A DNA stretch of 20,307 nucleotides from a virus: IMG/VR virus record IMGVR_UViG_3300029448_000577, positions 1 through 20,307 of that record; one strand, 5' to 3'. The first letter of the stretch is position 1, and every line of letters begins with the position of its first letter. A program made the translations under genes and the position numbers. Below the pieces are notes generated by a model that worked only from the letters and a program-made list of their open reading frames with translations, had not been told where the DNA came from and ran no database searches. Shown here piece after piece: positions 3,678-18,175 of this stretch.

Positions 3678-5225
3678 ATGGCAATTTCAAATCCAGGAGG
3701 TAATTTGAATACTGTACCGTCGCCAACTAAGGCTACGTTTGCAACAAATTATCTAGATTTAGCGTCAGGGTCTACGGACTGGGCGCAACAATATGTACCG
3801 GACTTAATGGAGAAAGAAGCTGAAGTATTTGGAAACAGAACTATTTCAGGATTTCTTGCTCAAGTAAGTGCCGAAGAGGCTATGACTGCTGATCAAGTAG
3901 TTTGGTCTGAACAAGGTAGATTACATTTATCTTATATAGGAAACATTAAAAGTACAACGGCAACTGCGGCGCCATCTGGTGTTGGTGGTGTTATTGAAAT
4001 CGATAGTGATATTGATGGAAATGCTACTTCAACTTCAGCTATTGATCACGGTATTAGAGTAAACGATTTACTTTTAGTATCTAGTGCTTCTTTAACAGCT
4101 ATGTGTTTAGTTACAGGTGTTACAGCTGACGATATTGATGTAGTTCCTTATAACTCAGTTACTACTGCTGGAACATTAGCAGGTATTGGTTTTAGTACTG
4201 ATACTGTTACTGTATTAGTTGTTGGTTCTGAATATGGAAAAGGTATGTCTTATGTAAAAGATGCTGTTACTACTACTAATATTCATAACAGAAGTCTTGA
4301 TCAAGTTGACTTCCGTCAATCAAACGAACCTCAATTTAAATCTTTTAGCAACAAACCAATTATAATGAAAGACTATTATAGTGTTTCTGGTTCTGATGCT
4401 TCTAGAGTTGGTTGGGTTGAAATTTCTCAAGAAGATGGAACTTCTGGATACTTATGGTATCTAAAAGCTGAATCTGAAACGAGAATGAGATTTACTGATC
4501 AACTAGAAATGGCAATGTTAGAATCAGTTAAAGTAGTTAATACTAAGTCTGAGGCTGATAACTTCTTAGGTGGTGCTGATAGTGCTGACGATGGTTCTTG
4601 GGGTACTCAAGGTTTATTTGACGCTATTAATGACAGAGGTAATGTTACTACTGGTGTTACTGGTGTTAACGCTGCTACTGATCTAGCTGAATTTGATGCT
4701 ATCTTAGCTGAGTTTGATTCTCAAGGTGCTATTGAAGAAAATATGATGTTTGTTAACAGATCTACTAGCTTAGCTATAGACGATATGTTAGCTGCAATGA
4801 ATTCTTACGGTGCTGGTGGTACATCTTACGGTGTATTCAACAACTCTGAAGATATGGCATTAAACTTAGGTTTCTCTGGTTTCAGAAGAGGTTCTTATGA
4901 CTTCTACAAGTCTGACTGGAAATACTTAAACGACAAAGCTACAAGAGGTGGTATTAATGCTGCCGCAACTTCTGATGCTGTTCGTGGGATATTTATTCCA
5001 GCTGGTGTATCATCTGTATATGACGAGCAGTTAGGAAAGAACATGAAACGTCCTTTTTTACACGTTAGATATAGAGCTTCTAATACAGAAAGTAGAAAAA
5101 TGAAAACTTGGACTACTGGTTCTGTTGGTGCCGTTACATCTGACTTAGATGCAATGCAAATGAACTTCTTATCTGAAAGATGTTTAATTACTCAAGGTGC
5201 TAACAATTTCATGTTAATGAAATAA
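3678..5225 (+). CDS. Major capsid protein (HK97-fold expected)
   Basis: Main shell subunit. The 515-residue protein has the layout of capsid proteins from marine and Bacteroidetes podoviruses. An N-terminal arm (1-60) includes DLMEKEAEVFGNRTISGFLA. A beta-rich segment (about 100-185, IRVNDLLLVSS then VTGVTADDIDVVPY) looks like an inserted or E-loop-side beta domain. A long helix (about 265-285, TRMRFTDQLEMAMLESVKVV) would be the spine helix. The C terminus contains FLHVRYRASNTESRKMKTW and ends LSERCLITQGANNFMLMK, a pattern I recall as strongly conserved in these capsids. The HK97 fold is an inference from family. A rho-independent terminator starts 14 bases after the stop. From about base 3990 on, T-ending codons (GGT, GCT, ACT, GTT) dominate, as expected for a very highly expressed gene; the first 300 bases are more mixed. 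Confidence 0.9.
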   Translation: MAISNPGGNLNTVPSPTKATFATNYLDLASGSTDWAQQYVPDLMEKEAEVFGNRTISGFLAQVSAEEAMTADQVVWSEQGRLHLSYIGNIKSTTATAAPSGVGGVIEIDSDIDGNATSTSAIDHGIRVNDLLLVSSASLTAMCLVTGVTADDIDVVPYNSVTTAGTLAGIGFSTDTVTVLVVGSEYGKGMSYVKDAVTTTNIHNRSLDQVDFRQSNEPQFKSFSNKPIIMKDYYSVSGSDASRVGWVEISQEDGTSGYLWYLKAESETRMRFTDQLEMAMLESVKVVNTKSEADNFLGGADSADDGSWGTQGLFDAINDRGNVTTGVTGVNAATDLAEFDAILAEFDSQGAIEENMMFVNRSTSLAIDDMLAAMNSYGAGGTSYGVFNNSEDMALNLGFSGFRRGSYDFYKSDWKYLNDKATRGGINAAATSDAVRGIFIPAGVSSVYDEQLGKNMKRPFLHVRYRASNTESRKMKTWTTGSVGAVTSDLDAMQMNFLSERCLITQGANNFMLMK

Positions 5226-5238
5226 GCATTTATTATAT

Positions 5239-5280
5239 TAAAGAGACTGGGATTAATTTCCCAGTCCCTTTATTTTTATT
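5239..5280 (+). terminator. Rho-independent terminator after the capsid gene
   Basis: A perfect 8-bp stem GACTGGGA/TCCCAGTC (5245-5252 with 5259-5266) closes a 6-base loop ttaatt. Beyond a single A/C mismatch (5244, 5267), five more pairs extend it (taaag 5239-5243 with cttta 5268-5272). A T-rich tract (tttatttttatt) follows. It is correctly oriented to end or attenuate transcripts from the head genes. The next gene starts only 22 bases after it on the same strand, so partial read-through or a promoter within 5281-5301 is implied. Confidence 0.9.
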
Positions 5281-5301
5281 AATTTTATTATATATTATAT
5301 T

Positions 5302-6126
5302 ATGGCAAAGAAAAAAGAAACAAAAGTGGAGACAACTCCACCGGTTGTAGAACAACCAAAAGTTGAAACACCGGTTATGGATATTCCAAAACCAAAAAAA
5401 AATAATTGGGAAATAAAAAATAGAAGTTATTTTTTAAGAGGTAAAAGTAGAAAATCTTTATCTAGATCTATAAAAAGTGCTGGTATTTATTATTTTGACG
5501 AAGAAAAAGGATACGAAAGAGAGTTGAAGTATTGCGAAAACCAAAGAACTTGTTTTGTAGATGAAATGCAAGGGGATCAAAGATTATCCCATATTATATT
5601 TAGAAACGGTGTTTTATACGTACCAAGAGAGAAACAAACACTACAAAAGATGCTTTCATTATACCATCCAGGTAGAAAGCATATATATAAAGAGCACAAA
5701 CCTCAAGTCATAGCTCAAAATGAAGTTGAAATTATAGAGTTAGAAATTGACGCGTTAAACGCGGCTAAAAATCTAGATATAGATATGGCTGAAGCGGTTT
5801 TACGTGTAGAAAAAGGTTCTGAGGTATCTACGATGAGTTCTAAGGAACTTAAAAGAGATTTATTAGTATACGCAAAAAGAAATCCTCAACTGTTCTTAGA
5901 TTTAGTTAATGATGAAAATGTTCAGCTTAGAAACTTTGGTATTAAAGCAACTGAAATGGGGATATTAAAATTATCTTCTGATCAAAGAACTTTTACCTGG
6001 GCTTCTAACGATAGAAAACTAATGAACGTTCCATTTGACGAACACCCTTATTCAGCTTTAGCCGCTTGGTTTAAAACTGATGAAGGTATGGAGATTTACT
6101 CCAATATTGAAAAAAGATTAAATTAA
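5302..6126 (+). CDS. Conserved phage protein of unknown function, head-gene context
   Basis: I do not recognise a named family, though the sequence resembles conserved unknown proteins of marine phages. Residues 1-35 form a Lys/Glu/Pro-rich, probably disordered tail starting MAKKKETKVETTPP. Residues 36-125 form a compact basic domain containing RSYFLRGKSRKSLSRSIKSA, then FDEEKGYERELKYCENQ and FRNGVLYVPREKQTLQKMLS. The aromatic and basic content could suit nucleic-acid or capsid binding. Residues 140-274 look helical (a long E/L/A helix at 141-170 and repeated charged helices). No catalytic motif or membrane segment is visible. It is the first gene after the capsid terminator and precedes the adaptor genes, so a minor head or head-completion role is reasonable but unproven. 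It has no obvious counterpart in T7 between genes 10 and 11. Confidence 0.6.
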   Translation: MAKKKETKVETTPPVVEQPKVETPVMDIPKPKKNNWEIKNRSYFLRGKSRKSLSRSIKSAGIYYFDEEKGYERELKYCENQRTCFVDEMQGDQRLSHIIFRNGVLYVPREKQTLQKMLSLYHPGRKHIYKEHKPQVIAQNEVEIIELEIDALNAAKNLDIDMAEAVLRVEKGSEVSTMSSKELKRDLLVYAKRNPQLFLDLVNDENVQLRNFGIKATEMGILKLSSDQRTFTWASNDRKLMNVPFDEHPYSALAAWFKTDEGMEIYSNIEKRLN

Positions 6127-6132
6127 TCTAAC

Positions 6133-6171
6133 TGTAGATGCGGTCGCTCTACGGGGCGATCGTAAACTACA
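6133..6171 (+). other. GC-rich stem-loop with UACG tetraloop, no T-tract
   Basis: In the 60-base gap between two same-strand genes, 11 consecutive pairs (6139-6149 with 6154-6164, including three G-T wobbles) close the loop tacg with a c-g pair, giving the C(UACG)G form of the very stable UNCG tetraloops. Below a small internal loop (6138 against 6165-6166), five further pairs join tgtag (6133-6137) to ctaca (6167-6171). No T-run follows on either strand, so it is not a standard intrinsic terminator. A transcript-stabilising, processing or translation-modulating RNA element is an inference. Confidence 0.72.
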
Positions 6172-6186
6172 AATTAAAAAGAAATT

Positions 6187-6999
6187 ATGGCAGTAAGTAT
6201 AGATAGAGTATATCAAAAGGTTTTAGCGTTAGCTAACAAAGAACAAAGAGGGTATATAACTCCTCAAGAGTTTAACTTATTTGCCGACCATGCTCAGATG
6301 GAAATATTCGAGCAATATTTTTATGACTTAAATCAATTCAAAAGAACACCTGGTAGTAGTGGTGAATACTCAGATATTGTATCTATAATAAAAGATAAAA
6401 TATCCATGTTCGAGCACTATAACGTTGGTAGTTATAACGTAACAGTTGCCAATAAGTATGGAGATTGTATAGCTTTTGATACGGATATACCAGATTTATA
6501 TAGATTAGGGGAGATCTCAGTTACGTATCCTGCAAAAGGGAAGAGTGGAGTTTGCGAGCAGTTAACACCAAAAGAATTTACTATAAGAAATAGAAGTAAA
6601 TTATCTAAACACACTGAAGATAGACCCGTATACATTAAAAGAGATAACCAAGGTCAATTACGTATAAAAATATATCCATATCCTAAAACTGTAGGTTTTG
6701 TGGATTCCAATGGAAATGCAGTTCCCGATGGTAGTGATATAACAACTGCCACGAATAAAGCTGGAATATCAGCTGATTACATAAGAAAACCTAAAAAACC
6801 AAATTGGTCTTATGTTGTTATAAACGAAAAACCACTTTACAATTCAACTAATACTGTAGATTTTGAACTACACGCTTCAGAGGAAACGGAATTAGTATAT
6901 AGAATATTAACGTTAGCTGGTGTTGCGATCGAGAAACCACAACTTGTACAAACCGCGGCTGGTTTAGGGGCAGGTCAAATTCAACAAGAAAAACAATAA
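6187..6999 (+). CDS. Head-tail adaptor / connector-type virion protein
   Basis: Likely one of the ring proteins stacked under the portal. The 270-residue protein starts with a helical region (1-55) containing GYITPQEFNLFADHAQMEIF and YFYDLNQFKR, a pattern I recall from conserved structural proteins of marine and Bacteroidetes podoviruses. Residues 78-165 are beta-rich (YNVTVANKYGDCIAFDTDIP; RPVYIKRDNQGQLRIKIYPY). A linker-like segment (about 168-195) leads to DYIRKPKKPNWSYVVINEKP and a C-terminal helix (ESETELVYRIL-type, residues 229-245) of the sort adaptor proteins use to dock on neighbouring rings. The tail is Gln/Ala/Gly rich. The start at 6187 follows aattaaaaagaaatt. Only four bases separate its stop from the next gene, so the two adaptors are probably translationally coupled. 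The exact ring position cannot be told from sequence. Confidence 0.66.
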   Translation: MAVSIDRVYQKVLALANKEQRGYITPQEFNLFADHAQMEIFEQYFYDLNQFKRTPGSSGEYSDIVSIIKDKISMFEHYNVGSYNVTVANKYGDCIAFDTDIPDLYRLGEISVTYPAKGKSGVCEQLTPKEFTIRNRSKLSKHTEDRPVYIKRDNQGQLRIKIYPYPKTVGFVDSNGNAVPDGSDITTATNKAGISADYIRKPKKPNWSYVVINEKPLYNSTNTVDFELHASEETELVYRILTLAGVAIEKPQLVQTAAGLGAGQIQQEKQ

Positions 7000-7003
7000 A
7001 TAA

Positions 7004-8503
7004 ATGGGATTATTAGACGATACTACACATAAAAATTATTACCAAGGTAATGATTTTGGAAATTATCAATTTACATCTTTAGATGATATTATAACTCAAT
7101 TCCAAATAGCTTATGTTGGTGAGGGTAAAATTATTCAAAAAGTTAAAAGAGCTGACATTGCATTCCATGCACAAAGAGGATTACAAGAGTTTTCTTTTGA
7201 TACTTTTAAATCGATCAAGTCTCAACAAATAGATCTACCACCAACATTAGTTATGCCACTGCCTCATGACTATGTAAATTACACAAAATTATCTTGGACT
7301 GATTCAGCTGGTATAAAACATCCACTATACCCTACGAACCGTACTTCAAATCCATTTCAAGTAAGGCAGGAAGATGATGGTGAGTATTCTTTTCCTGAAG
7401 AATTAGAGTTAATTGTTAATAATGATTTTTCAGCTGCCACTCTTGCTGACAATAAACCAGCTCCACCGTGGAAGAGAAATAGCCTCCCACAAACTGGCAA
7501 CTACACTACGATATATGCAGATTGCAACATAAGCCAAGAGGTATTAATATTTTCTCACAGAACTAGAACTAGTCACGGTGATTCTAGTGGTTGGGGTCAT
7601 GCCATGTCTATGTGGCAAGCGATAGATGTTAGTGATCAGGATTACGTGGATATTTCTGCTAAAGGAACCGCTGTAGATATGACAAATGGTCCTGGTGTTC
7701 TTAGGTTTGGTTTAAGCACAATGCCAGGTGATTCAAACACTAAAAACTTAAACAACCAAACCTATGCTGATTCAGGTACTAATCATTTACCAGAGAGTTT
7801 TGATCTCGTAGGACCTAACGGCGTGGGTAGTTATATAGAGTGGAGATCAAGTGATGGCACAGACGTGTCAAAAGAGTTGCTTAAAGTAGATGTTAGTGCG
7901 TATGATAAAGTTTATGTTTTAATAGTGTCTTACCAAGAATTTTCAGGCATAAATAGCACTCTTACAGCGACTAACTATATAGACGATGTGTCTGTAACAA
8001 ATAGTTACGCTAGCACAAAATTACAAGCCGCTATTGGTAACGAAACAGAATCTTCTACTTGGGGCTCCTACAAAGCAAACACTCCGTCTGAAAATCAAGA
8101 CGATTATCAAGATGACACTTACTGGCCGCAGGATGGATCTAGATACGGATTAGACCCTCAACACGCTCAAGCTAATGGATCGTTTTATATAGATCCTAGA
8201 TTAGGAAGAATACATTTTTCATCTAATATTTCAGGAAAAACTGTGATCTTAGATTATATAAGTGATAGTCTTGGTACGGACGCGGAGATGCAAGTTCATA
8301 AATTTGCAGAAGAAGCGATGTATAAGTATATAGCTTACGCAATTTTATCTACATCGTCCCAACCAATACACCAACAGTTAGCGCCTAGATTTAAAAAAGA
8401 AAGATTCGCGGAAACAAGGAAAGCTAAATTAAGATTATCTAATATTAAATTAGAAGAATTAACTCAAATACTTAGAGGTAAGTCTAAGCAAATAAAACAC
8501 TAG
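7004..8503 (+). CDS. Tail-tube / ring protein interrupted by a jelly-roll domain
   Basis: Probable head-to-tail ring protein, functionally like the T7 gp11 / P22 gp4 adaptors. The conserved shell is split in two. The N part (1-133) contains IAYVGEGKIIQKVKRADIAF and helix AQRGLQEFSFDTFKS, then LPHDYVNYTKLSW. The C part (about 336-499) contains SRYGLDPQHAQANGSFYIDP, LGTDAEMQVHKFAEEAMYKY and the basic end ILRGKSKQIKH. As I recall, related marine-phage proteins run almost directly from one part to the other and are about half this length. Here roughly 200 residues (134-335) intervene, with features of a carbohydrate-binding-like beta sandwich. The gene lies four bases after the previous adaptor and three bases before the nozzle gene, suggesting one tightly coupled tail-assembly operon. 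Function rests on family resemblance and order. Confidence 0.75.
   Translation: MGLLDDTTHKNYYQGNDFGNYQFTSLDDIITQFQIAYVGEGKIIQKVKRADIAFHAQRGLQEFSFDTFKSIKSQQIDLPPTLVMPLPHDYVNYTKLSWTDSAGIKHPLYPTNRTSNPFQVRQEDDGEYSFPEELELIVNNDFSAATLADNKPAPPWKRNSLPQTGNYTTIYADCNISQEVLIFSHRTRTSHGDSSGWGHAMSMWQAIDVSDQDYVDISAKGTAVDMTNGPGVLRFGLSTMPGDSNTKNLNNQTYADSGTNHLPESFDLVGPNGVGSYIEWRSSDGTDVSKELLKVDVSAYDKVYVLIVSYQEFSGINSTLTATNYIDDVSVTNSYASTKLQAAIGNETESSTWGSYKANTPSENQDDYQDDTYWPQDGSRYGLDPQHAQANGSFYIDPRLGRIHFSSNISGKTVILDYISDSLGTDAEMQVHKFAEEAMYKYIAYAILSTSSQPIHQQLAPRFKKERFAETRKAKLRLSNIKLEELTQILRGKSKQIKH
7403..8008 (+). other. Inserted CBM-like jelly-roll domain in the ring protein
   Basis: Residues about 134-335 of the 499-residue ring protein. 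It begins LELIVNNDFS, matching LIVNGNFE at the start of the third nozzle insert, and ends NYIDDVSVTNS, matching the I-D-N-I-S-V end of those inserts. Between lie W, Y and G-rich beta segments (GWGHAMSMWQAIDVS; YDKVYVLIVSYQEF). Such starts and ends are typical of carbohydrate-binding-module-like beta sandwiches (CBM4/9 type). Ligand and boundaries are inferred; boundaries may be off by about ten residues. Confidence 0.68.
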
Positions 8504-8506
8504 TAC

Positions 8507-11500
8507 ATGCCAGAGATTAAGCATAATTTTACCGGTGGTAAGATGAATAAGGATCTTGACGAGAGACTTGTTCCAAACGGAGAATATAGAGACGCAATGA
8601 ATATACAAGTGTCAACTTCAGAAGGGTCTGATGTTGGTACTGCGCAAAATATACTAGGTAACGCTTTGATTGCTGGTCAAGATTTTATATCTGAAAATTC
8701 AACTTGCATTGGGTCAATCGCTGATGAAAAAAATGATAAGTTATATTATTTTATTACTCAAAAAGAATTTTTAAATATAGATTTTACTGGAATTAGTGGT
8801 ACTACTTATGGTCAGACAGAGTGGTATTTGGATAGCAGTTGGGAGGCAGATAATAACAGGCTTGAAGCAAGCGCAGCAGCTACGACCGGTGATAATGCTA
8901 GATATCCTATTCCGGGAACTGATAATTTAATAGCTGGAAAAAGTTATATAGTAACGTTTACTGTATCAAATTACACGGCAGGAAAAGTGAGATTAATTTT
9001 ATATGGACAAAACAATGAGTATGGAACTACCTCTGATATAAGTAGTGGTGGTACGTTTACAGAAATTGTTACTATTAACCCTAGTACTGCAGGTGGCGGT
9101 GGTTTTGCTAACGCTATTTTATTTCAACCAAGAAATAGCGCTTTCACGGGTAATATAGATAATATATCTATCACAAAGGTGGAAGATTTTATATTAGAAT
9201 ATGATTCCATAAATAACCTTATAACACCAGTACTGGTTGATACTACTGGAGATGTTTTGAAATTTAACCCAAATAATATAATTACTGGTATAAATATCAT
9301 TGACAACATGTTGTTTTGGACAGATAATCACTCTGAGCCAAAAAAGATTAATATTTCTCGCTGTATAGAGGGTACTGATAATTCCGGTACAATACATACA
9401 AAACTCATAAACAAATCTAGAGGTTACGATATAAATTCTAATATAGATTTACAAGAGGAGCATATTACGGTTATTAGAAAATCTCCTAAAACAGCTCCAA
9501 CCATAGAACTATTTTCAGGGCAATACCCCGGTCTTACCTATGGTGGTGTAATGAGAATAACACCTGATCCAGGTGGTTTAACTGCTGGTGGATCAAACAC
9601 ACAAAACTCATCCTCTTTTATAAATGCATCAAATCAATATTATGACTTTAGTCAGTTTTCAATTGGTAGTCAGTTCTCTACACGTATAGAGACGGATTTA
9701 CAAGGTGATAGTGGTTTTACTTTAAGTTGGAATGTTAATGACACTGTCGTGCTCAAAGAATTTGGAGGCGCTAACTACGACGAGGTCCCACCATCACCTA
9801 TAACAAATTATAGCATAAAAGCTAGAGTAGTTGATGTTATGCACCCAAGTGATGATATTGTTGAGCTAGCGCCTAACAACGATTTTGATCTACCAAATAT
9901 AAACGGAGGTCGACCACTTGGGTGGAGTTGGGACAGTCATTTTATATATGATTCAGCTAATAAACTTATTAAAGGTGATAGCGCTAATTATGGAAGAGAA
10001 CTGTGGTGTGATCCAGTAATTCCATTTGTAGAGAACGGGGTTTACAAGGTTTCAGTTACTATATCTGATCACACCGAAGGACTAATTTTAGCTTATATAG
10101 TTGGTAATTCTAGTTATTCGTTTTACTCTGGTGGAAACATTCCCTACTGGTATCCAATAATCGGTGGTTCGACAGGTTGGATGGCACCAGCAGGACTAAA
10201 TACCACCGTGACACATGAGTTTACTTTTACTTTAAACAGTGCAACATCAAATAATGGCGCTAATTTTGGTGGAGGTAGCTCAACATGGGGTAATCTTACT
10301 AGTAAATTCTTTTTAAGAACCGATGATATAAGCAATAGTGGCAATGGTTTTAATGGTAATATTGAGAGTATTTCTATAGAAAGACAAGACGTTATAGACG
10401 CACAGGTAAAGTTGGAGGTAGTAGGTTTTGAGGGTACTCCACCAGCTACACCTCCAAACTACACAGAGTTAAAATATGCTGTTGAAAAACTAAGTGAAGA
10501 AGAAAAATTATTTGAATACAAGTTTCCAAGATTTGCTTATAGGTATCAATATGAAGATAAAGAATACTCCACTTTTTCCCCTTTTACTCAAGTAGCTTTT
10601 TTACCAGGTTCTTTTGATTATCATCCAAGAAACGCTTATAACTTAGGTATGGTTAATAATGTTAGTGAAATTACGCTTTCTGGATTTATCCCACAAGAAC
10701 CTGACCTGACTACTGGTGCGTCTAGTGGAGAGAGTCAAGATATTGTGGCTGTTGACATACTGTATAAAGACGAGGCTTCTCCAAATGTTTATGTAGTAGA
10801 CACCATTAAAAACAACCAACACAATAGCAGTATTTGGACTAATAACGAATATGTTGTAAAGTCAGAGATAATAAAAAGAGTACTTCCCTCAAATCAATTA
10901 TTAAGACCTTGGGATGCCGTTCCTAAAACGGCGTTAGCGCAAGAGGTTAGTGGTAATAGGGTTGTGTACGCTAATTACACGCAGGGGTTTGATTTAATAA
11001 ACCAAGATACAAACGAAGAATATTATCCAAATTTAAATGTCAGCTTGTCTAGTGATTACCAGGGTTTAAGTACGGTAAAATCTATTAAATCTTTAAGAGA
11101 GTACCAACTTGGGGTTGTTTTTGTTGACAAATACGGTAGAGAAACACCAGTATTGTCTAATTCAACTGGTGAGCAAAAGATAACTAAGAAAGATTCCAAC
11201 AAAAGCAATAAGCTTGAGGTTTCATTTGCGGACACAATGTTCCCTAAAGATTTAAAATACTTTAAGTTTTTTATAAAAGAAACCTCAGGAGAATATTACA
11301 ACATGTCTATGGATAGATGGTGGGATGCTGGAGATGGTTTAGCGTGGTTATCCTTTCCTTCCTCCGATGTAAATAAAATAGATATTGATACATTTTTAAT
11401 ACTTAAAAAAGGTGTGGGTTCTGACGCATTAGTTGAAGACAAGGCCAGATACAAAGTGCTAGCAATAGAAACAGAGGCGCCAGATTATATAAAAACTAAT

Positions 11501-14500
11501 AAGATATTATTAGAAGAAAAAACTCAACTATTTACAGCTACTGATGACAGTCTTTTTGGTAGTTCAATAGACAATGCTCCGCTACTTGGTAGGGACAGTT
11601 TTCAAATAAATTACCTGCCATTTGCCGATAGCTCTGGTTCTGAACTTCACAACGTAAAAGAACAAGAAGGCGTTTTATATATAGAGTTTGCTATTGGTGA
11701 TGGTACTTCGGATAGATACAGAATAGCAGAGATGAGCCAACCCCAAGCCCCAGCGCCTCAAGCTAAATACCATATAAAGCTAGACAAAAAACTTGGAGAT
11801 GATATCAACTTTATATGTGATGATCCATCAACTGGGTTAAGTCCAACAAAAATAGTTGACAATACTATCGTTAGGATATATAAGTATATTCCAGAGAACT
11901 CAAGTGAATTTGATGGAAGATTTTTTGTTAAGGTAAACAAAGATGACGTTTTTAACTCTAACGTTTACGCGGAAACTGTAGGGCAAAAAAGTTATAGAAT
12001 TTCGGTTTCTAAAAAGCTCTACTACATGGGCGCTAATCAAAAGACATTACACAGAAGCGAATTTACGGGTCAAACAAGAGGTATATATCAAAACCCTCTA
12101 TATCCTGTTGGGACTGGATCCAGTACAAGTGTTGATATGGGAGGTCCAAACAATAATTTACACTTTGGAACTTTTGCTCCTTTTTTTAGAAACTACAGGT
12201 GGAAATCAAATACAGTAACAGATTCTAGTAGTAATTATATTGGACAATACAGATTTGACGACACTAATCAAACAGATTGGGAAAATGAGCTAACCCACTG
12301 GACGGGACAAGGACAAGGCGCAGCAGTTTCATCTAACATGCCAAATATTAAAGCTGCTGACAAATCTGGTTTTGACGCTGGAGAGAGGTATGGTGTTTTC
12401 AACTCCAAAGGAGAGCAAGAAAAGGGTAACGTATGGTTTATTGACGGTGGTCCTTATTCAGGTGAACGTACTGGTGATCCTAGTTTAGATTGGGAATTTA
12501 TACACATGACAGATGATATTGAGCAAGGTGTAAATCAAAACACAGGTCCAAATACCGAATCTTCAATGGTAATAGCTATAGGAGGAATTTACCATAATAA
12601 AGAAAATCATTTTCAAGATGTGCAAAATGATAGCCATATAACTGAAGAATTTTTTAATATAGGTCGCGATAACGGTAACCCTTTCTATAACAGCTCACAG
12701 TTTAAGACTTTGGTAGCGAAAATATCACCTTCGATTAAGTTTAGGTTTAGAGAAGATCCTACAGGTGAAGTATATACAATTCAAACTAGTGGCGTAAACC
12801 ATCATATGAGATTGAGGTGGAGTGATGGGGCGAAACAATCACCTAGCTCGAATGAATATCCAGCATGGAATAACAACCCCAGTATACCTCAAGCTGCTCA
12901 ATTATCCCCAAACTTTAGTATGGGATATAAAACTACTTTTAAAAACAGCGATGGAGATGGTGATATGAGTTGGGATCCAACAAACGGGGGTAGTACCGGC
13001 CCAATTGATGGTGGCTTAAAGTTAACAGTACCACACGCTTCTTCCCCCCTTACTCTTGCCTATAATGAAGTTTATGTTGAAAATATACACGATATAGTAT
13101 GTGATATTAATGGAGGTAAGCATTCTATATCTAGGGGCATGATATTAACAAAGTATAGTTCAATATCGCTAAATGGTAGTTTTGATGATCCTAATGGTAG
13201 TAGCTCCAGCGTGTACTCAATGGAGCCACTTATAATAAGTGAGATAGATCCATACCCATCATCAGGTGCTACTCAAGGTTTCATTTTAACGCTAACTGGT
13301 TACTCTAGTTTATTTCTCAAAACAACTCCTAGCTCGGCAATAGCGGCATTAGGTTTGAAAAAACACAAAATCATGGACACTTCACCGAGTACGGGTCACA
13401 CGTTGGTTTTTCAACAACCAGCAATGAATGGTTATAGTCAATATTCTGTTAATAGAATAAATACAAAAGACCCTAATAGTGATGGTTTTTCACTTGCAAA
13501 CCCTGGTATATTAGCGGTTGGTTATACTATAGATTTTCTTGAAGAAATAAACCTAGAATCTGAGTTTCCTAGTAATCCTGCTGTTTGGGAAACTGAGCCA
13601 AAAGAGACTACTGATTTAGATATATACTACGAAGCTAGCGGGTATAATCCGCTTGAATTAACAGAAGAAACTAAGTACCTAGCAATACCAGCTGGTTCCT
13701 TAGTTGAATGTATAGAAAGTCCCGCGGCAACACTTGTTAATATGATCGTTACGAGTGTAGATTATGAGCCCCTGCCAAGCACACTTCTTCTCGGTCAATA
13801 TGGAACAGGAGTTTGGCGTTTATCTTTAGCTACTAAATTCACACAAGATCAACCTCTTGTTGGTAGTAGTTACATTCAAATAGGTAGTCATTTAAAAATA
13901 ACAAAACCAGGTGGTGGTATTATAACTGTTGAAGTAACCGGTTGGGATGCTGATGTTGCAAACCAATCGGGATACGCAGGTTTCCCAGCAAGAGTCCCGT
14001 ATGTGTATGTAAACGAAATTCTACACGGGTCAAATACAAAATACACTTTAGGTTGGCACAACTGTTATTCGTTTGGAAACGGCGTTGAGTCTAATAGAAT
14101 TAGAGATACTTATAATCTACCCTTTATAACTAATGGAGTAAAAGCGTCTACAACGCTAGACGAAAACCCCTATGAAGAGCAATTAAAATATGGACTTATA
14201 TATTCTGGTATATATAACTCAAATAGTAGTGTTAACAATTTAAATCAATTTATAGCTGCTGAAAAAATTACAAAAGAAATAAACCCTATTTATGGTAGCA
14301 TACAAAAGTTAAAAGCCGGTTGGGGACAAGGTGGTGATTTAGTAACGCTTTGCGAAGATAGAGTTTTAAAGATACTAGCAAATAAAGACGCTTTATTTAA
14401 TGCTGATGGAAATTCAAATATAACCTCAACAAACAGCGTTTTAGGTCAAGCTATTCCTTATTCTGGCGAGTATGGTATATCTAAAAATCCAGAATCGTTT

Positions 14501-16411
14501 GTATCAGAAGCTTACAGAGCTTATTTTACCGACAAAGTAAGAGGTGCTGTGATGAGGCTTTCTATGGATGGTTTAACACCTATATCTAGTGCTGGGATGA
14601 GTGATTGGTTTAGAGATAATTTAAAATTATCAACTAAACTTATTGGTAGTTACGATGATAGAAATGATGAATATAATATTACACTTGCAGATAGAAAAAC
14701 TTTAGGAGAAGAATTAATTGTAAATGGAAATTTTGAAACTGATCCATCAGATACGTGGTTTCAATCTGGATCTGTAAATCATTGGACCTGGGATAGCGTT
14801 AATAACAATATGTTTTCCGATGCAGATGACCATGAGAGAGTTGGCCAAGATCTTAGTGGTTCTATTGCACTAGGAAAAACTTATCAAATATCATATACTG
14901 TTGGAAAACCTCAAGATGGTTCTGATTTAGACGGTAGATTGTGGGTTACTCTTCATGACGAGAATGCTAATTACGCATCACTTCAAGGCACGACAAGCAG
15001 TTTAGCTTCTGTTGGAATGCATACAAAGAATATTACTGTAAAGAGTTCTTGGGTTCCTTGGCCGTGGGGAACTTTAGCCAACCATCCAAACAGTATACAT
15101 TTCCACAATAAAGCTCATGGTGGTAGTGGATATTTTAATGGAACCATAGATAATATATCTGTAAAAGAAGTTATACTTGATCCTACAACAGTTTCTTTTA
15201 AAGAGGATGTGAAAGGTTGGGTTAGTTTTAAGTCTTTTGTACCCGAGAACGCACTTAGCACAGCAAACAACTACTACACAGTGTTTGGCGGTAGACTTTA
15301 TAAGCACCACATTGAAAACATTAACAGAAACACTTTTTATAATACGTTTACAAACTCAAGTTTAAATGTTTTATTAAACGACACGCCAAGTAGTATAAAA
15401 TCATATCACACATTAGAGTATGAGGGTAGTCAATCTAGAGTTGAAGGTGTTAAAACAATTAATATTACAGGAGTAGAACACTCTCTTGGCTCTAGCGTTG
15501 ATGGTAGATATGCGTTTTTTGAGGCGTCAGATATGAATAGTTTGTTAAACCACTCTGATTGGAATGAAAGCATAATTGAAATAAAACAATATCGTAATAA
15601 TATTCTTATTTATCAAAACTATGCTAAACTATGGGATAGTACTAACACAGACTCTTTATCATCACCATCTGGTGGGCCTACAAAAGCGCATTTAAGACGT
15701 AATGAGTCTGCGGTGACAAGCGTTTTCCCTGGAAACTCTAATCCTGGTGATTTTCAAATTGGTGATGTTATAACAACACAACTACAAGAAGATAGTGTTC
15801 ACGCGATTGGCTCTGATCTATTTAACTCTACGCCAGCAGATGGTTGGTACGTTAGCAATATAGAAACTAATAAAGAAAAAGGTAGTTTACTTGAGTTCAT
15901 AGAAAAAGAAGGGAAATGGTTTAATTACATTAAAGGTTTAGAGTCTAGTTTTGATGATATAGATTTCGGTTCTTCTGAAGTTCAGGGTCTAGGTATTCAG
16001 TCTGAATTAAACAACGGTATGGTGCTTGAAAACGCAAATGGCCTTGGTGACGGAACTGCTAGAATATTTATAGACGGTGGTATAAACTGCTCTTTACAAG
16101 TTGGTGATGCTGTTTATTACCAATTACCTGATTCTGAAGAGATATTTAGCGCTGGTGTCGTTGTTACTAACCCTTCATTTTTCGATGGAATTACAGGGCC
16201 AACACAAGATCTTTTTCAGGTTGATATGAATGATCTTTTTAGTAGCCTACCCGGCCCAGGAACCGGGACATATTGGATGTTTGTAAAAAATCAGGTGATT
16301 AATATGAATGGTTTATCAGGGTATTATGCTAGCGCGAGGTTTGAAAATAATTCAAAAGTTAAAGCTGAGCTTTACGCAGTTAGTTCTGAAATAACACAAA
16401 GTAGTAAATAA
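8507..16411 (+). CDS. Giant tail nozzle / muzzle protein with inserted jelly-roll domains
   Basis: At 2634 residues this is the largest protein, covering about 39% of the window. It probably forms the hexameric nozzle of the short tail, the role of T7 gp12, P22 gp10 or the crAss-like muzzle protein. The N terminus (KHNFTGGKMNKDLDERLVPN, then EYRDAMNIQVSTSEGSDVGT) and blocks near 672-701 (KFPRFAYRYQYEDKEYSTFS), 918-944 (YFKFFIKETSGEYYNMSMDR), about 2000-2060 (AYFTDKVRGAVMRLSMDGLT) and 2231-2260 (FKEDVKGWVSFKSFVPENAL) match, from memory, a family widespread in marine phages and predicted to be beta-propeller-like. The C terminus ends in FENNSKVKAELYAVSSEI. Three jelly-roll domains interrupt this frame (about 88-225, 449-628, 2066-2224), explaining part of the unusual length. 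Residues about 1130-1900 and 2311-2443 hold further material I cannot assign. The start lies three bases after the ring-protein stop. No internal stop or frameshift was seen. Confidence 0.82.
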   Translation: MPEIKHNFTGGKMNKDLDERLVPNGEYRDAMNIQVSTSEGSDVGTAQNILGNALIAGQDFISENSTCIGSIADEKNDKLYYFITQKEFLNIDFTGISGTTYGQTEWYLDSSWEADNNRLEASAAATTGDNARYPIPGTDNLIAGKSYIVTFTVSNYTAGKVRLILYGQNNEYGTTSDISSGGTFTEIVTINPSTAGGGGFANAILFQPRNSAFTGNIDNISITKVEDFILEYDSINNLITPVLVDTTGDVLKFNPNNIITGINIIDNMLFWTDNHSEPKKINISRCIEGTDNSGTIHTKLINKSRGYDINSNIDLQEEHITVIRKSPKTAPTIELFSGQYPGLTYGGVMRITPDPGGLTAGGSNTQNSSSFINASNQYYDFSQFSIGSQFSTRIETDLQGDSGFTLSWNVNDTVVLKEFGGANYDEVPPSPITNYSIKARVVDVMHPSDDIVELAPNNDFDLPNINGGRPLGWSWDSHFIYDSANKLIKGDSANYGRELWCDPVIPFVENGVYKVSVTISDHTEGLILAYIVGNSSYSFYSGGNIPYWYPIIGGSTGWMAPAGLNTTVTHEFTFTLNSATSNNGANFGGGSSTWGNLTSKFFLRTDDISNSGNGFNGNIESISIERQDVIDAQVKLEVVGFEGTPPATPPNYTELKYAVEKLSEEEKLFEYKFPRFAYRYQYEDKEYSTFSPFTQVAFLPGSFDYHPRNAYNLGMVNNVSEITLSGFIPQEPDLTTGASSGESQDIVAVDILYKDEASPNVYVVDTIKNNQHNSSIWTNNEYVVKSEIIKRVLPSNQLLRPWDAVPKTALAQEVSGNRVVYANYTQGFDLINQDTNEEYYPNLNVSLSSDYQGLSTVKSIKSLREYQLGVVFVDKYGRETPVLSNSTGEQKITKKDSNKSNKLEVSFADTMFPKDLKYFKFFIKETSGEYYNMSMDRWWDAGDGLAWLSFPSSDVNKIDIDTFLILKKGVGSDALVEDKARYKVLAIETEAPDYIKTNKILLEEKTQLFTATDDSLFGSSIDNAPLLGRDSFQINYLPFADSSGSELHNVKEQEGVLYIEFAIGDGTSDRYRIAEMSQPQAPAPQAKYHIKLDKKLGDDINFICDDPSTGLSPTKIVDNTIVRIYKYIPENSSEFDGRFFVKVNKDDVFNSNVYAETVGQKSYRISVSKKLYYMGANQKTLHRSEFTGQTRGIYQNPLYPVGTGSSTSVDMGGPNNNLHFGTFAPFFRNYRWKSNTVTDSSSNYIGQYRFDDTNQTDWENELTHWTGQGQGAAVSSNMPNIKAADKSGFDAGERYGVFNSKGEQEKGNVWFIDGGPYSGERTGDPSLDWEFIHMTDDIEQGVNQNTGPNTESSMVIAIGGIYHNKENHFQDVQNDSHITEEFFNIGRDNGNPFYNSSQFKTLVAKISPSIKFRFREDPTGEVYTIQTSGVNHHMRLRWSDGAKQSPSSNEYPAWNNNPSIPQAAQLSPNFSMGYKTTFKNSDGDGDMSWDPTNGGSTGPIDGGLKLTVPHASSPLTLAYNEVYVENIHDIVCDINGGKHSISRGMILTKYSSISLNGSFDDPNGSSSSVYSMEPLIISEIDPYPSSGATQGFILTLTGYSSLFLKTTPSSAIAALGLKKHKIMDTSPSTGHTLVFQQPAMNGYSQYSVNRINTKDPNSDGFSLANPGILAVGYTIDFLEEINLESEFPSNPAVWETEPKETTDLDIYYEASGYNPLELTEETKYLAIPAGSLVECIESPAATLVNMIVTSVDYEPLPSTLLLGQYGTGVWRLSLATKFTQDQPLVGSSYIQIGSHLKITKPGGGIITVEVTGWDADVANQSGYAGFPARVPYVYVNEILHGSNTKYTLGWHNCYSFGNGVESNRIRDTYNLPFITNGVKASTTLDENPYEEQLKYGLIYSGIYNSNSSVNNLNQFIAAEKITKEINPIYGSIQKLKAGWGQGGDLVTLCEDRVLKILANKDALFNADGNSNITSTNSVLGQAIPYSGEYGISKNPESFVSEAYRAYFTDKVRGAVMRLSMDGLTPISSAGMSDWFRDNLKLSTKLIGSYDDRNDEYNITLADRKTLGEELIVNGNFETDPSDTWFQSGSVNHWTWDSVNNNMFSDADDHERVGQDLSGSIALGKTYQISYTVGKPQDGSDLDGRLWVTLHDENANYASLQGTTSSLASVGMHTKNITVKSSWVPWPWGTLANHPNSIHFHNKAHGGSGYFNGTIDNISVKEVILDPTTVSFKEDVKGWVSFKSFVPENALSTANNYYTVFGGRLYKHHIENINRNTFYNTFTNSSLNVLLNDTPSSIKSYHTLEYEGSQSRVEGVKTINITGVEHSLGSSVDGRYAFFEASDMNSLLNHSDWNESIIEIKQYRNNILIYQNYAKLWDSTNTDSLSSPSGGPTKAHLRRNESAVTSVFPGNSNPGDFQIGDVITTQLQEDSVHAIGSDLFNSTPADGWYVSNIETNKEKGSLLEFIEKEGKWFNYIKGLESSFDDIDFGSSEVQGLGIQSELNNGMVLENANGLGDGTARIFIDGGINCSLQVGDAVYYQLPDSEEIFSAGVVVTNPSFFDGITGPTQDLFQVDMNDLFSSLPGPGTGTYWMFVKNQVINMNGLSGYYASARFENNSKVKAELYAVSSEITQSSK
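8768..9181 (+). other. Nozzle jelly-roll insert 1
   Basis: Residues about 88-225. It sits between KNDKLYYFITQKE and DFILEYDSINN, which read as two adjacent strands of one propeller blade, so it appears to occupy a single loop. Core pattern: LIAGKSYIVTFTVSNYTAGK, then VRLILYG, and the terminal signature FTGNIDNISI at 213-222. This layout is typical of CBM-like beta sandwiches. Confidence 0.7.
9851..10390 (+). other. Nozzle jelly-roll insert 2
   Basis: Residues about 449-628. It interrupts the run from SIKARVVDVMHP to VKLEVVGFEGTPP. The start has NNDFDLPNINGGRPLGWSWD, the middle VYKVSVTISDHTEGLILAYI, and the terminal signature FNGNIESISI at 615-624. These align by eye with inserts 1 and 3. It is the longest of the three nozzle copies, with an extra Gly/Ser/Asn-rich loop (about 545-600). 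Confidence 0.68.
14702..15178 (+). other. Nozzle jelly-roll insert 3
   Basis: Residues about 2066-2224. It separates SYDDRNDEYNITL from TTVSFKEDVKGW, two blocks that are close together in the related marine-phage proteins I recall. The start is ELIVNGNFETDPSDTWFQSG, followed by NHWTWD; the middle is GKTYQISYTVGKP; the terminal signature FNGTIDNISV lies at 2210-2219. It is the most canonical CBM4/9-like copy of the set. Confidence 0.73.
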
Positions 16412-16426
16412 ATAAATAAATAAAAT

Positions 16427-18175
16427 ATGTCATATCACTACGGTTCATCAAGCTCATCAAGCACGCCTTCTAGCGCTACACAAAGAACAGTAAACGCTCA
16501 AGGACTAGTAGCACCTGATGGATATCATTATATGCCAGATGGAACTTTAATGTCTGACATCGAGCACGCTAGATTATATGGTAGCGGCGGAACAATAAAA
16601 TCATTTGATTTAAACACCGCAAACATAAAGGCTAGTGGTGAAAAAAGAACGTTTACAATAACGGGTGATGGAACGTTTAGCTTAATGATTAAAAACGAAA
16701 GTGATTATTATTATAACTTTAATACAAACAAGTTTCAAGCAACCAACACTAGATTGGCTAACAAAAAAATAAATAATACGTATAGTGGTAATATAAGCTT
16801 TCCGTCAGCACCAGCAACAACAGACACTGTTGATGGAGCCGTCAGTAGTGCTACTAGTGTAACCATGGATACTGCTGTTGCAACAAAAATGGAGGTAGGT
16901 GATAGAGTTACCGGAACTAGCGCTCTTAATGCCGCAAATATAACAGTTGCGTCTATAGACTCTGAAAAGGTGTTTTCTTTATCTTCAGCGGCTACTATAT
17001 CAGACGGTGTAACTTTAACTTTTACTGGCTCTGATCAATACGATATTTTTCTATTTGCAGAAAATGGAACTAAACACGCTAATTACAACGAAGTTAGGTT
17101 TGAAGATAATGCTATAGATATAAACTCTTCCACAGGATCTGACTCTTTATTACTTAGAAAAGTTATATACCAAACGCTAGATGTGAGGCTAACACTATCA
17201 GCTATATCGCCTAATGCTGAAACACTTTTTGCAGGTACATCGTCAACAACCCAATCTTTAACCGCTCAAGTAGGTAAAAATACTGGTAAAATTCCATTTT
17301 CAATTCCAGTTACAGCTGGTGCTACGCATTCACTTAAGATAGATAGAACTCCAACTATTAACGATGTGTTAATATTTGTTACTAGAACTATTGGATCTGC
17401 TCCTGTTGCTATAGAAGGTGAAGATGTTAGCGAGTCAACTTACTACAGGTGGCCAATTAGTAATATAGATGGGCTTACTGCTGGAATGATTATTGCTCCT
17501 GATACTAACGTAACAACTGGAACTGTAATATCTTCTTATGAGGAAGTTGTAACTCAAATGGAAGGCACTAGAGAAGAAAAAAGAATTACTCAAGTTAGAG
17601 TGGAACCATTAGACGGTTTAGGTGTTAAGCCAACTTTAACTAGAGATACGGCTACAAAACAATTAACAACAGTGCAAACCGGTAATATTGTTTTTAACAA
17701 AAAACAAGCAGCGGCTTTAGCTGATGATGTAGTAAAAATTTATGGTTATGGACCAAGTGCTATTAAAGCTTTATCCGGTTGGGAAATTGAACTTAGTGAC
17801 ATAGCTGTAACGTTAACAAAACCTACAGCTTTAGTTGCTACAACAACTATCAACAGTACTACTGTAAATATAGATAATGCAGATGGGATTATGGATGATG
17901 TGAGTACGGTTAGTAGTTTTAATATAAACTCTTCAGCAGCTAATCCAACAGTAACCAATATAGGTAGTTATAGTGGCACTACAGCAACATTAACCTTAAG
18001 CGCAGCTCAATCTTTAGAAGCTGGAGAAACATTAACATTTGATGGTGCTGGTAGAACTATAACAATATCTGGTAATATTGAGGTTAAAAAAGTTGGTGCA
18101 GTTAGATCTGATTGGAATGGTACTTTAATTTTTGACTTAGAAAAGTTTATAACAGCAACCAATGAGACGTCTTAG
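16427..18175 (+). CDS. Virion structural protein with two beta repeats
   Basis: Unnamed structural protein, probably tail- or capsid-surface associated. Residues 4-20 are a Ser-rich flexible segment. Next comes GYHYMPDGTLMSDIEHARLY (33-52), a motif I recall from marine phage virion proteins. Residues about 60-130 form a small beta domain (TFTITGDGTFSLMIKNESDY). Two related beta repeats follow: 140-202 (SSATSVTMD ... FSLSSAATISDGVTLTFTG) and 472-540 (TTINSTTVNID ... LTLSAAQSLEAGETLTFDG). Between them (about 205-440) is a further beta-rich region including TAQVGKNTGKIPFSIPVTAG. No enzymatic motif is visible. It begins 15 bases after the nozzle stop, behind taaataaataaataaaatATG. T7 has no equivalent between genes 12 and 13. 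A fibre, nozzle-accessory or decoration role is possible; none is shown by the sequence. Confidence 0.68.
   Translation: MSYHYGSSSSSSTPSSATQRTVNAQGLVAPDGYHYMPDGTLMSDIEHARLYGSGGTIKSFDLNTANIKASGEKRTFTITGDGTFSLMIKNESDYYYNFNTNKFQATNTRLANKKINNTYSGNISFPSAPATTDTVDGAVSSATSVTMDTAVATKMEVGDRVTGTSALNAANITVASIDSEKVFSLSSAATISDGVTLTFTGSDQYDIFLFAENGTKHANYNEVRFEDNAIDINSSTGSDSLLLRKVIYQTLDVRLTLSAISPNAETLFAGTSSTTQSLTAQVGKNTGKIPFSIPVTAGATHSLKIDRTPTINDVLIFVTRTIGSAPVAIEGEDVSESTYYRWPISNIDGLTAGMIIAPDTNVTTGTVISSYEEVVTQMEGTREEKRITQVRVEPLDGLGVKPTLTRDTATKQLTTVQTGNIVFNKKQAAALADDVVKIYGYGPSAIKALSGWEIELSDIAVTLTKPTALVATTTINSTTVNIDNADGIMDDVSTVSSFNINSSAANPTVTNIGSYSGTTATLTLSAAQSLEAGETLTFDGAGRTITISGNIEVKKVGAVRSDWNGTLIFDLEKFITATNETS

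Follow-up and report, generated by a model that had tools for sequence, protein, structure and literature searches.

Predicted CBM-type domains inserted in the ring and muzzle proteins of crAss-related phages

Two adjacent tail genes in the window (the whole stretch of DNA analysed here, a complete IMG/VR-type virus record of 20,307 bases) contain four inserted segments that fall into two sequence families, and three of these segments (R1, N1 and N2) are predicted by structural modelling to share one CBM-type beta-sandwich fold. The central proposal of the preliminary description, that CBM-like domains were repeatedly inserted into a ring and a muzzle protein and are lacked or swapped by close relatives, was borne out, with the amendment that the ring insert belongs to another sequence family than the muzzle inserts.

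Results

The window and its tail genes

The gene order of the window runs from the portal via a probable scaffold, the major capsid protein, a short conserved gene and an upstream virion gene (6187..6999, + strand; phrog_14543) to the ring and muzzle genes. The same order was found in Cellulophaga phages phi38:1 and phi13:2 (with some small genes added in phi13:2), Flavobacterium phage elemoA, Maribacter phage Panino and the Manatee Spring podovirus ctfjg026, and the nearest isolates have Flavobacteriia as hosts. The ring gene (7004..8503, + strand; phrog_13977, E 2e-41) encodes a protein of 499 aa that is homologous to the 269–307 aa rings of Cellulophaga and Flavobacterium phages but carries an additional insert of ca. 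200 aa, and insert-free ring homologs were present in the five cultured phages.

The adjacent gene (8507..16411, + strand; phrog_14478, E 3.2e-115) encodes a protein of 2634 aa that had provisionally been called a nozzle. Because its residues 8–70 match PF25731 (crAss_MUZ) with 31.2 bits, which is above the cut-off of 27, and its match to PF25729 (crAss_MUZ_C) lies just under the cut-off of 27 with 26.1 bits, we refer to it as the muzzle protein and regard the phages of the window as crAss-related. The cultured homologs of elemoA and phi38:1 reach 64.6–67.9 bits with PF25729, the match in the window being interrupted by a further insert (X5, see below). In twelve relatives (L014, L011, L025, L061, L056, L026, L012, L018, L021, L035, L034 and L075), the muzzle gene lies in two adjacent frames, with the break at approximately window residues 1740–1790, which may reflect a split gene, an assembly error or a frameshift.

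Position and motifs of the inserted segments

Translation reproduced the position of the four segments, all on the + strand. R1 spans residues 134–335 of the ring protein (7403..8008), while N1, N2 and N3 span residues 88–225 (8768..9181), 449–628 (9851..10390) and 2066–2224 (14702..15178) of the muzzle protein. The short motifs from which their kinship had been proposed were present as well: the N-x-(N/D)-F start appears as VNNDF, PNNDF and VNGNF, with only a weak 'NIDF' in N1, the middle strand of the muzzle copies reads GKSYIVTFTV, GVYKVSVTI and GKTYQISYTV, and the segments end on F-x-G-x-I-(D/E)-(N/S)-I-S-(V/I), with YIDDVSV as the end of R1. The short start and end motifs would by themselves have been insufficient to show kinship of R1 to the other segments; it is the kinship among N1–N3 and the insertion sites that stand above chance.

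Empty and filled sites in relatives

Site occupancy was examined in 154 related loci, in which the length of each site was taken between conserved anchors. Site lengths proved bimodal, being either empty or longer than 70 residues (50 to 133 uncultured relatives per site). Because identical insert strings were counted once, the numbers of empty sites are lower bounds: the N1 site was empty in at least 52 cases and filled in 70 (with 107–496 aa), the N2 site empty in at least 17 and filled in 33, and the R1 site empty in at least 15 and filled in 118. The N3 site was empty in at least 56 cases, with 6 further cases containing 123–199 aa and 27 containing about 950–1440 aa.

A MAFFT alignment of 36 full-length muzzles, made without chosen anchors, recovered low-occupancy segments at residues 89–236, 445–631 and 2063–2226, and most of the flanking blocks had an occupancy above 95%. 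Occupancy amounted to 0.49 for N1, 0.37 for N2 and 0.17 for N3, although these fractions are biased since some of the loci had been found via insert peptides, which leaves the bimodality unaffected. Additional low-occupancy segments appeared at residues 1481–1636, 2501–2634 and 2313–2436. The last of these corresponds to X5 (15443..15814, + strand; occupancy 0.18), which interrupts crAss_MUZ_C in such a way that the match spans positions 2–81 in L122 and L002 but ends at 55 in the window. X5 is missing from most relatives, and content of similar length occupies its position in L090, L101, L006 and L092. Membership of X5 in any of the sequence families J, R and V described below could be dismissed, as no profile matched it.

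All four sites were empty in each of the five cultured relatives (phi38:1, phi13:2, elemoA, Panino and ctfjg026). The flanks of N1 and R1 are plainly continuous in these phages, as illustrated by the N1 junction, which reads IYWFVNSNTGDYVIEYD in phi38:1 versus LYYFITQKE[N1]EDFILEYD in the window. Around N2, the five cultured phages have a shorter or missing stretch, so that the emptiness of this site is better shown by the IMG/VR relatives than by these distant cultured ones. When N3 and R1 were used on their own in tblastn searches of cultured phage records, no match was obtained at that sensitivity. The anchor-free alignment, the bimodal lengths and the empty sites in cultured relatives together confirm that the segments were inserted between continuous blocks, and the empty sites rule out that they are an integral part of the fold. 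Rather than being carried by all homologs, the inserts are lacked or swapped by close relatives and, because the outgroups are empty, their gain in the lineage of the window is the simpler reading.

Two sequence families among the four segments

Iterated HMM searches started from N1, N2 or N3 converged on one common set of 61–67 inserts (family J). The same procedure started from R1 yielded 86 inserts, all from rings (family R), with zero overlap with J. Since the J profiles share members, the comparison was repeated with profiles limited to one site each, and hhalign then gave 98.7% for N1–N2, 98.0% for N1–N3 and 97.0% for N2–N3, with the reservation that J membership had been set by a shared search and this test is therefore not wholly independent. 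Direct BLAST comparison of N1 with N3 of the window (E 6.6e-6) agreed with the profile result. The site-restricted N1 profile also recognised J copies from ring genes (98.0%). Family R, by comparison, gave only 1.6–11% against the three muzzle profiles and 27% against the ring-gene J copies, in both cases through short alignments of the start motif, while reversed controls stayed below 1%. The proposal of one family inserted four times thus stands for N1, N2 and N3 and falls for R1, for which membership in J was rejected by the iterated searches, the site-restricted profiles and the protein comparison, the start motif alone being alignable.

In eight other inserts, the ring site is occupied by J. 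In other phages, close kin of the window included, the ring site and at times the N1 site are filled by an unrelated, beta-rich-looking family (V) with the motif GMxVSGPxIxxxTxV (e.g. L002:3672-4127, L004:7379-7873 and L078:10259-10699). The long fillings of the N3 site (e.g. in the L084 muzzle, 11504-21469) carry at least two tandem J-like units at their C-terminal end in 25 of 27 cases, these units reaching 98.3% to J with hhalign. Across 86 ring homologs, the inserts are open-frame with conserved fold positions. Locus L115 contains two ring-type frames in succession (3808-5343 and 5359-6984), both with R-family inserts, which is possibly a ring-gene duplication. Directly 3' of the muzzle gene, the window contains a gene of 582 aa (16427-18175) to which no PHROG or Pfam entry matched and which is a candidate appendage or fibre gene; a V-family domain that had been suspected in it by eye found no match in an HMM search and was discarded.

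Predicted folds

An AlphaFold2 model of the ring protein, built with 68 ring homologs, had a mean pLDDT of 67.9 and a pTM of 0.47, with a poorly modelled core, while R1 within it mostly reached a pLDDT of about 85–95. In structure searches, R1 (model residues 133–339) matched CBM70 (4d0q; Z 13.4, rmsd 2.9 over 147 residues), CBM16 (Z 12.3), CBM61 (Z 12.2) and CBM4-2 (Z 11.9), and it also resembled jelly rolls found in phage tailspikes, for example in K2-2 TSP. A model of muzzle residues 1–720 (mean pLDDT 73.0, pTM 0.38) placed N1 (model residues 85–228) closest to CBM15 (1gny; Z 11.7), CBM86 (Z 11.2) and CBM29, the three spanning Z 11.7–11.0, and N2 (model residues 451–632) closest to CBM70 (4d0q; Z 12.6) and CBM16 (Z 12.5). 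According to these models, R1, N1 and N2 are CBM-type beta-sandwiches, as had been supposed from the sequence, and no difference in fold separates the three. Eph receptors and meprins were also among the matches, indicating that beta-sandwiches of this type serve non-glycan roles too. In a library of predicted viral structures, the best matches of the ring model included an uncultured ring of 455 aa (36% identity), a Tenacibaculum phage structural protein of 269 aa, and proteins annotated 'Carbohydrate-binding, CenC-like'.

For N3, a CBM-type fold is suggested by its homology to N1 and N2 and by a match to Pfam CBM_4_9 (PF02018) that, with 19.9 bits (E 9.8e-4), is the best score in the window but lies under the gathering cut-off of 25.9. 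At E<=0.01, CBM_4_9 was found in 3 of 55 J members and 0 of 40 R members, and single-sequence Pfam searches of N1, N2 and R1 gave no useful match. The J profile nevertheless found CBM70 (4d0q) from sequence alone with an E-value of 4.9e-6. Searches of PDB sequences with N3 (phmmer) and with profiles of A1, A2, A4 and A6 gave no match, and a residue-level mapping of crAss001 gp44 onto the window was therefore not obtained.

Movement and turnover of the inserts

J copies at different sites can be closer to each other than copies at the same site. In L122, for example, N1 shows 54% identity to N3 of L092 (153 residues), and the ring insert shows 43% identity to N1 of L098 (105 residues). J has also entered a third gene: L028:7525-8622, a homolog of the upstream virion gene, whose copy in the window is without a J domain, has a J domain inside that is 47% identical to the N3 insert of L002. 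The encoded protein measures 366 aa versus 225–296 aa in the 150 other homologous ORFs, making this the sole case in 151.

On a FastTree phylogeny of 114 core sequences, the minimum number of state changes was 14 for R1, 24 for N1, 5 for N2 and 11 for N3, counts that are indicative given the many weak forks in this tree. Within the seven-row clade of the window itself (support 98), R, J or V occupies the ring site, and the N1 and N3 sites are each either empty or filled. Where ring cores are 80–90% identical, their inserts have a median identity of 34% (n=82 pairs). At the DNA level, identity to L031 is about 85–97% in the blocks that flank R1 and N1 but falls to about 35–70% within the two inserts, while in comparison with L122 both R1 and N1 have been replaced and N2 still shows 67–93% identity. 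A dip and recovery of this kind would be expected if domains were exchanged by way of conserved flanks. The GC content of the inserts (0.365–0.389) is close to that of the cores (0.323–0.364). In 18 longer contigs (40–67 kb), J matches were confined to frames of 1775–2854 aa (muzzle-sized) or 438–473 aa (ring-sized), and R matched once per genome, in a frame of 468–572 aa, in 16 of the 18.

Discussion

The closest precedent for the system in the window comes from dairy siphophages, in whose evolved Dit proteins CBMs have been inserted. In lactococcal phages, neck and tail CBMs bind host cells (PMC6669499), and CBMs inserted in Dit allow the phages to adsorb to lactococci that produce EPS (PMC10688798). 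The evoDit, TpeX and neck-passage insertions of the lactococcal 936/Skunavirus phages likewise place CBM-type domains within conserved tail structural proteins, at several virion positions per phage group, and are present, absent or of several types in otherwise similar phages (PMC6669499, PMC10688798). As in evolved Dit proteins, the inserts described here lie in a conserved tail protein and are missing from relatives with the same core. The 936/Skunavirus phages differ in being long-tailed, in infecting Gram-positive hosts and in having binding and adsorption demonstrated experimentally, whereas the present system is known from sequence and models. Moreover, the recipients in the window are the ring (phrog_13977) and the muzzle (phrog_14478, PF25731) instead of distal tail (Dit), major tail or neck-passage proteins, three J copies reside in one polypeptide, and J is common to several genes.

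In crAss001, twelve ring subunits encircle the tail barrel and six muzzle subunits make up the tip (PMC10172136). By domain match (PF25731, PF25729), the muzzle of the window is the same protein as crAss001 gp44, of which the structural report notes that its length varies via insertions into the crass and IG2 domains and suggests that the tip contacts the host (PMC10172136). The domains it describes in gp44 are Ig-like and not CBM-type jelly rolls, and its passages on these proteins that we consulted contain no description of comparable ring inserts or of interchange between sites or genes (PMC10172136). The BACON tandem repeats of crAssphage are likewise putative carbohydrate-binding domains carried by tail proteins in phages of Bacteroidota, and both duplication and horizontal transfer have spread them, but they belong to another domain family and form tandem arrays in tail-associated proteins instead of insertions in ring and muzzle loops (PMC6949934). 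With CBM families 70, 16, 4 and 61 (R1, N2) and 15, 29 and 86 (N1), the domains of the window share the predicted fold and, in the case of J and N3, a weak sequence match to CBM70 4d0q and CBM_4_9, respectively. They differ from these families in remaining below the Pfam cut-off, R being without a sequence match, and in having virion proteins, not glycoside hydrolases, as their carriers. CBM-like modules inserted in tail proteins and length variation of the crAss muzzle by insertion are thus already known. In the open-licence literature, we found no report of CBM inserts in ring or muzzle proteins, and neither the ring and muzzle of crAss-related phages as recipients nor one domain family common to several sites and three genes was found described.

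Taken together, we consider it probable that the inserts are exchangeable modules for adhesion, carried by the barrel and the tip of the tail, which would most plausibly bind glycans as the inserted CBMs of lactococcal phages do. CBMs usually act through multivalent, weak binding of surface polysaccharide. The ring (tail barrel) and the muzzle (tail tip) would offer a few permissive positions that accept whole CBM-type beta-sandwich domains, and homologous recombination via the conserved flanking tail sequence would exchange them. By analogy with crAss001, the domains may project from the outer surface of the tail; this exposure is drawn from the analogy and not from our models, as the ring and muzzle cores were modelled poorly. 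If the analogy holds, a virion would display about 12 R1 domains per ring and 6 x 3 = 18 J domains on the hexameric muzzle. These could bind the capsule, exopolysaccharide or LPS of Bacteroidota hosts, which, on top of whatever fibres exist, would provide avidity and a means of adjusting which hosts are recognised.

Accessory beta-sandwich domains of unclear role are common in phage structural proteins. The inserts might accordingly be decorations with a structural role, stiffening or shielding the tail without any ligand, like accessory Ig-like or decoration domains. The crAss001 muzzle, which has two Ig-like domains and for whose insertion-derived length differences only an effect on surface properties is mentioned (PMC10172136), would agree with such a role. 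We nevertheless deem it unlikely, because cultured relatives that share the core have nothing at any of the four sites, which makes the inserts dispensable for assembly, and because replacement by unrelated families and inserts of 34% identity beside cores of 80–90% fit a changing partner better.

Somewhat less credit is given to the inserts being docking platforms for other virion proteins such as fibre hubs or fibres, in which case their swapping would follow that of the fibre genes. The first two ring proteins of crAss001 bear fibre-docking hubs (PMC10172136), and R occurs once per genome and only in ring-sized frames, so R1 would be the best candidate for such a role. N1–N3, by contrast, reside in the muzzle and not in the hub-bearing rings, and one J family spread across several sites and genes is hard to reconcile with site-specific docking. 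Near-neutral traffic, in which tolerant loops gain and lose compact beta domains by recombination without a selected function, would be in line with the high turnover, with the unrelated inserts X5 and V, and with the stretches of about 950–1440 aa at N3 in some phages. It appears improbable given that the inserts have kept their frames open and their fold positions conserved, and that the accepted domains mostly stem from CBM-like families and not from a random sample of folds.

A further-reaching form of the adhesion reading is that the tail serves as a modular 'pegboard', on which a short-tailed lineage displays and reshuffles a shared pool of CBM-like domains over four or more sites spread across three core tail genes. 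Recombination inside single genes as well as from one gene to another would then allow host recognition to change while dedicated fibre genes stay as they are. The phages might even rely on this in place of classical tail fibres. We hold this wider reading as a whole to be tentative and rather doubtful.

Sites that are empty in cultured kin and differently filled in close kin point to an interchangeable host-surface-binding system within the tail machine. The crassvirus muzzle is thought to contact the host, and discrete domains with naturally empty counterpart sites offer ready material for tests of what it recognises. The fast turnover of inserts beside slowly evolving cores may in turn provide a marker of host-recognition types in marine metagenomes. 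More broadly, the presence of such inserts in barrel and muzzle proteins of marine crAss-related phages, with one domain family common to several sites and genes, suggests a general way for tail machines to gain surfaces that bind hosts.
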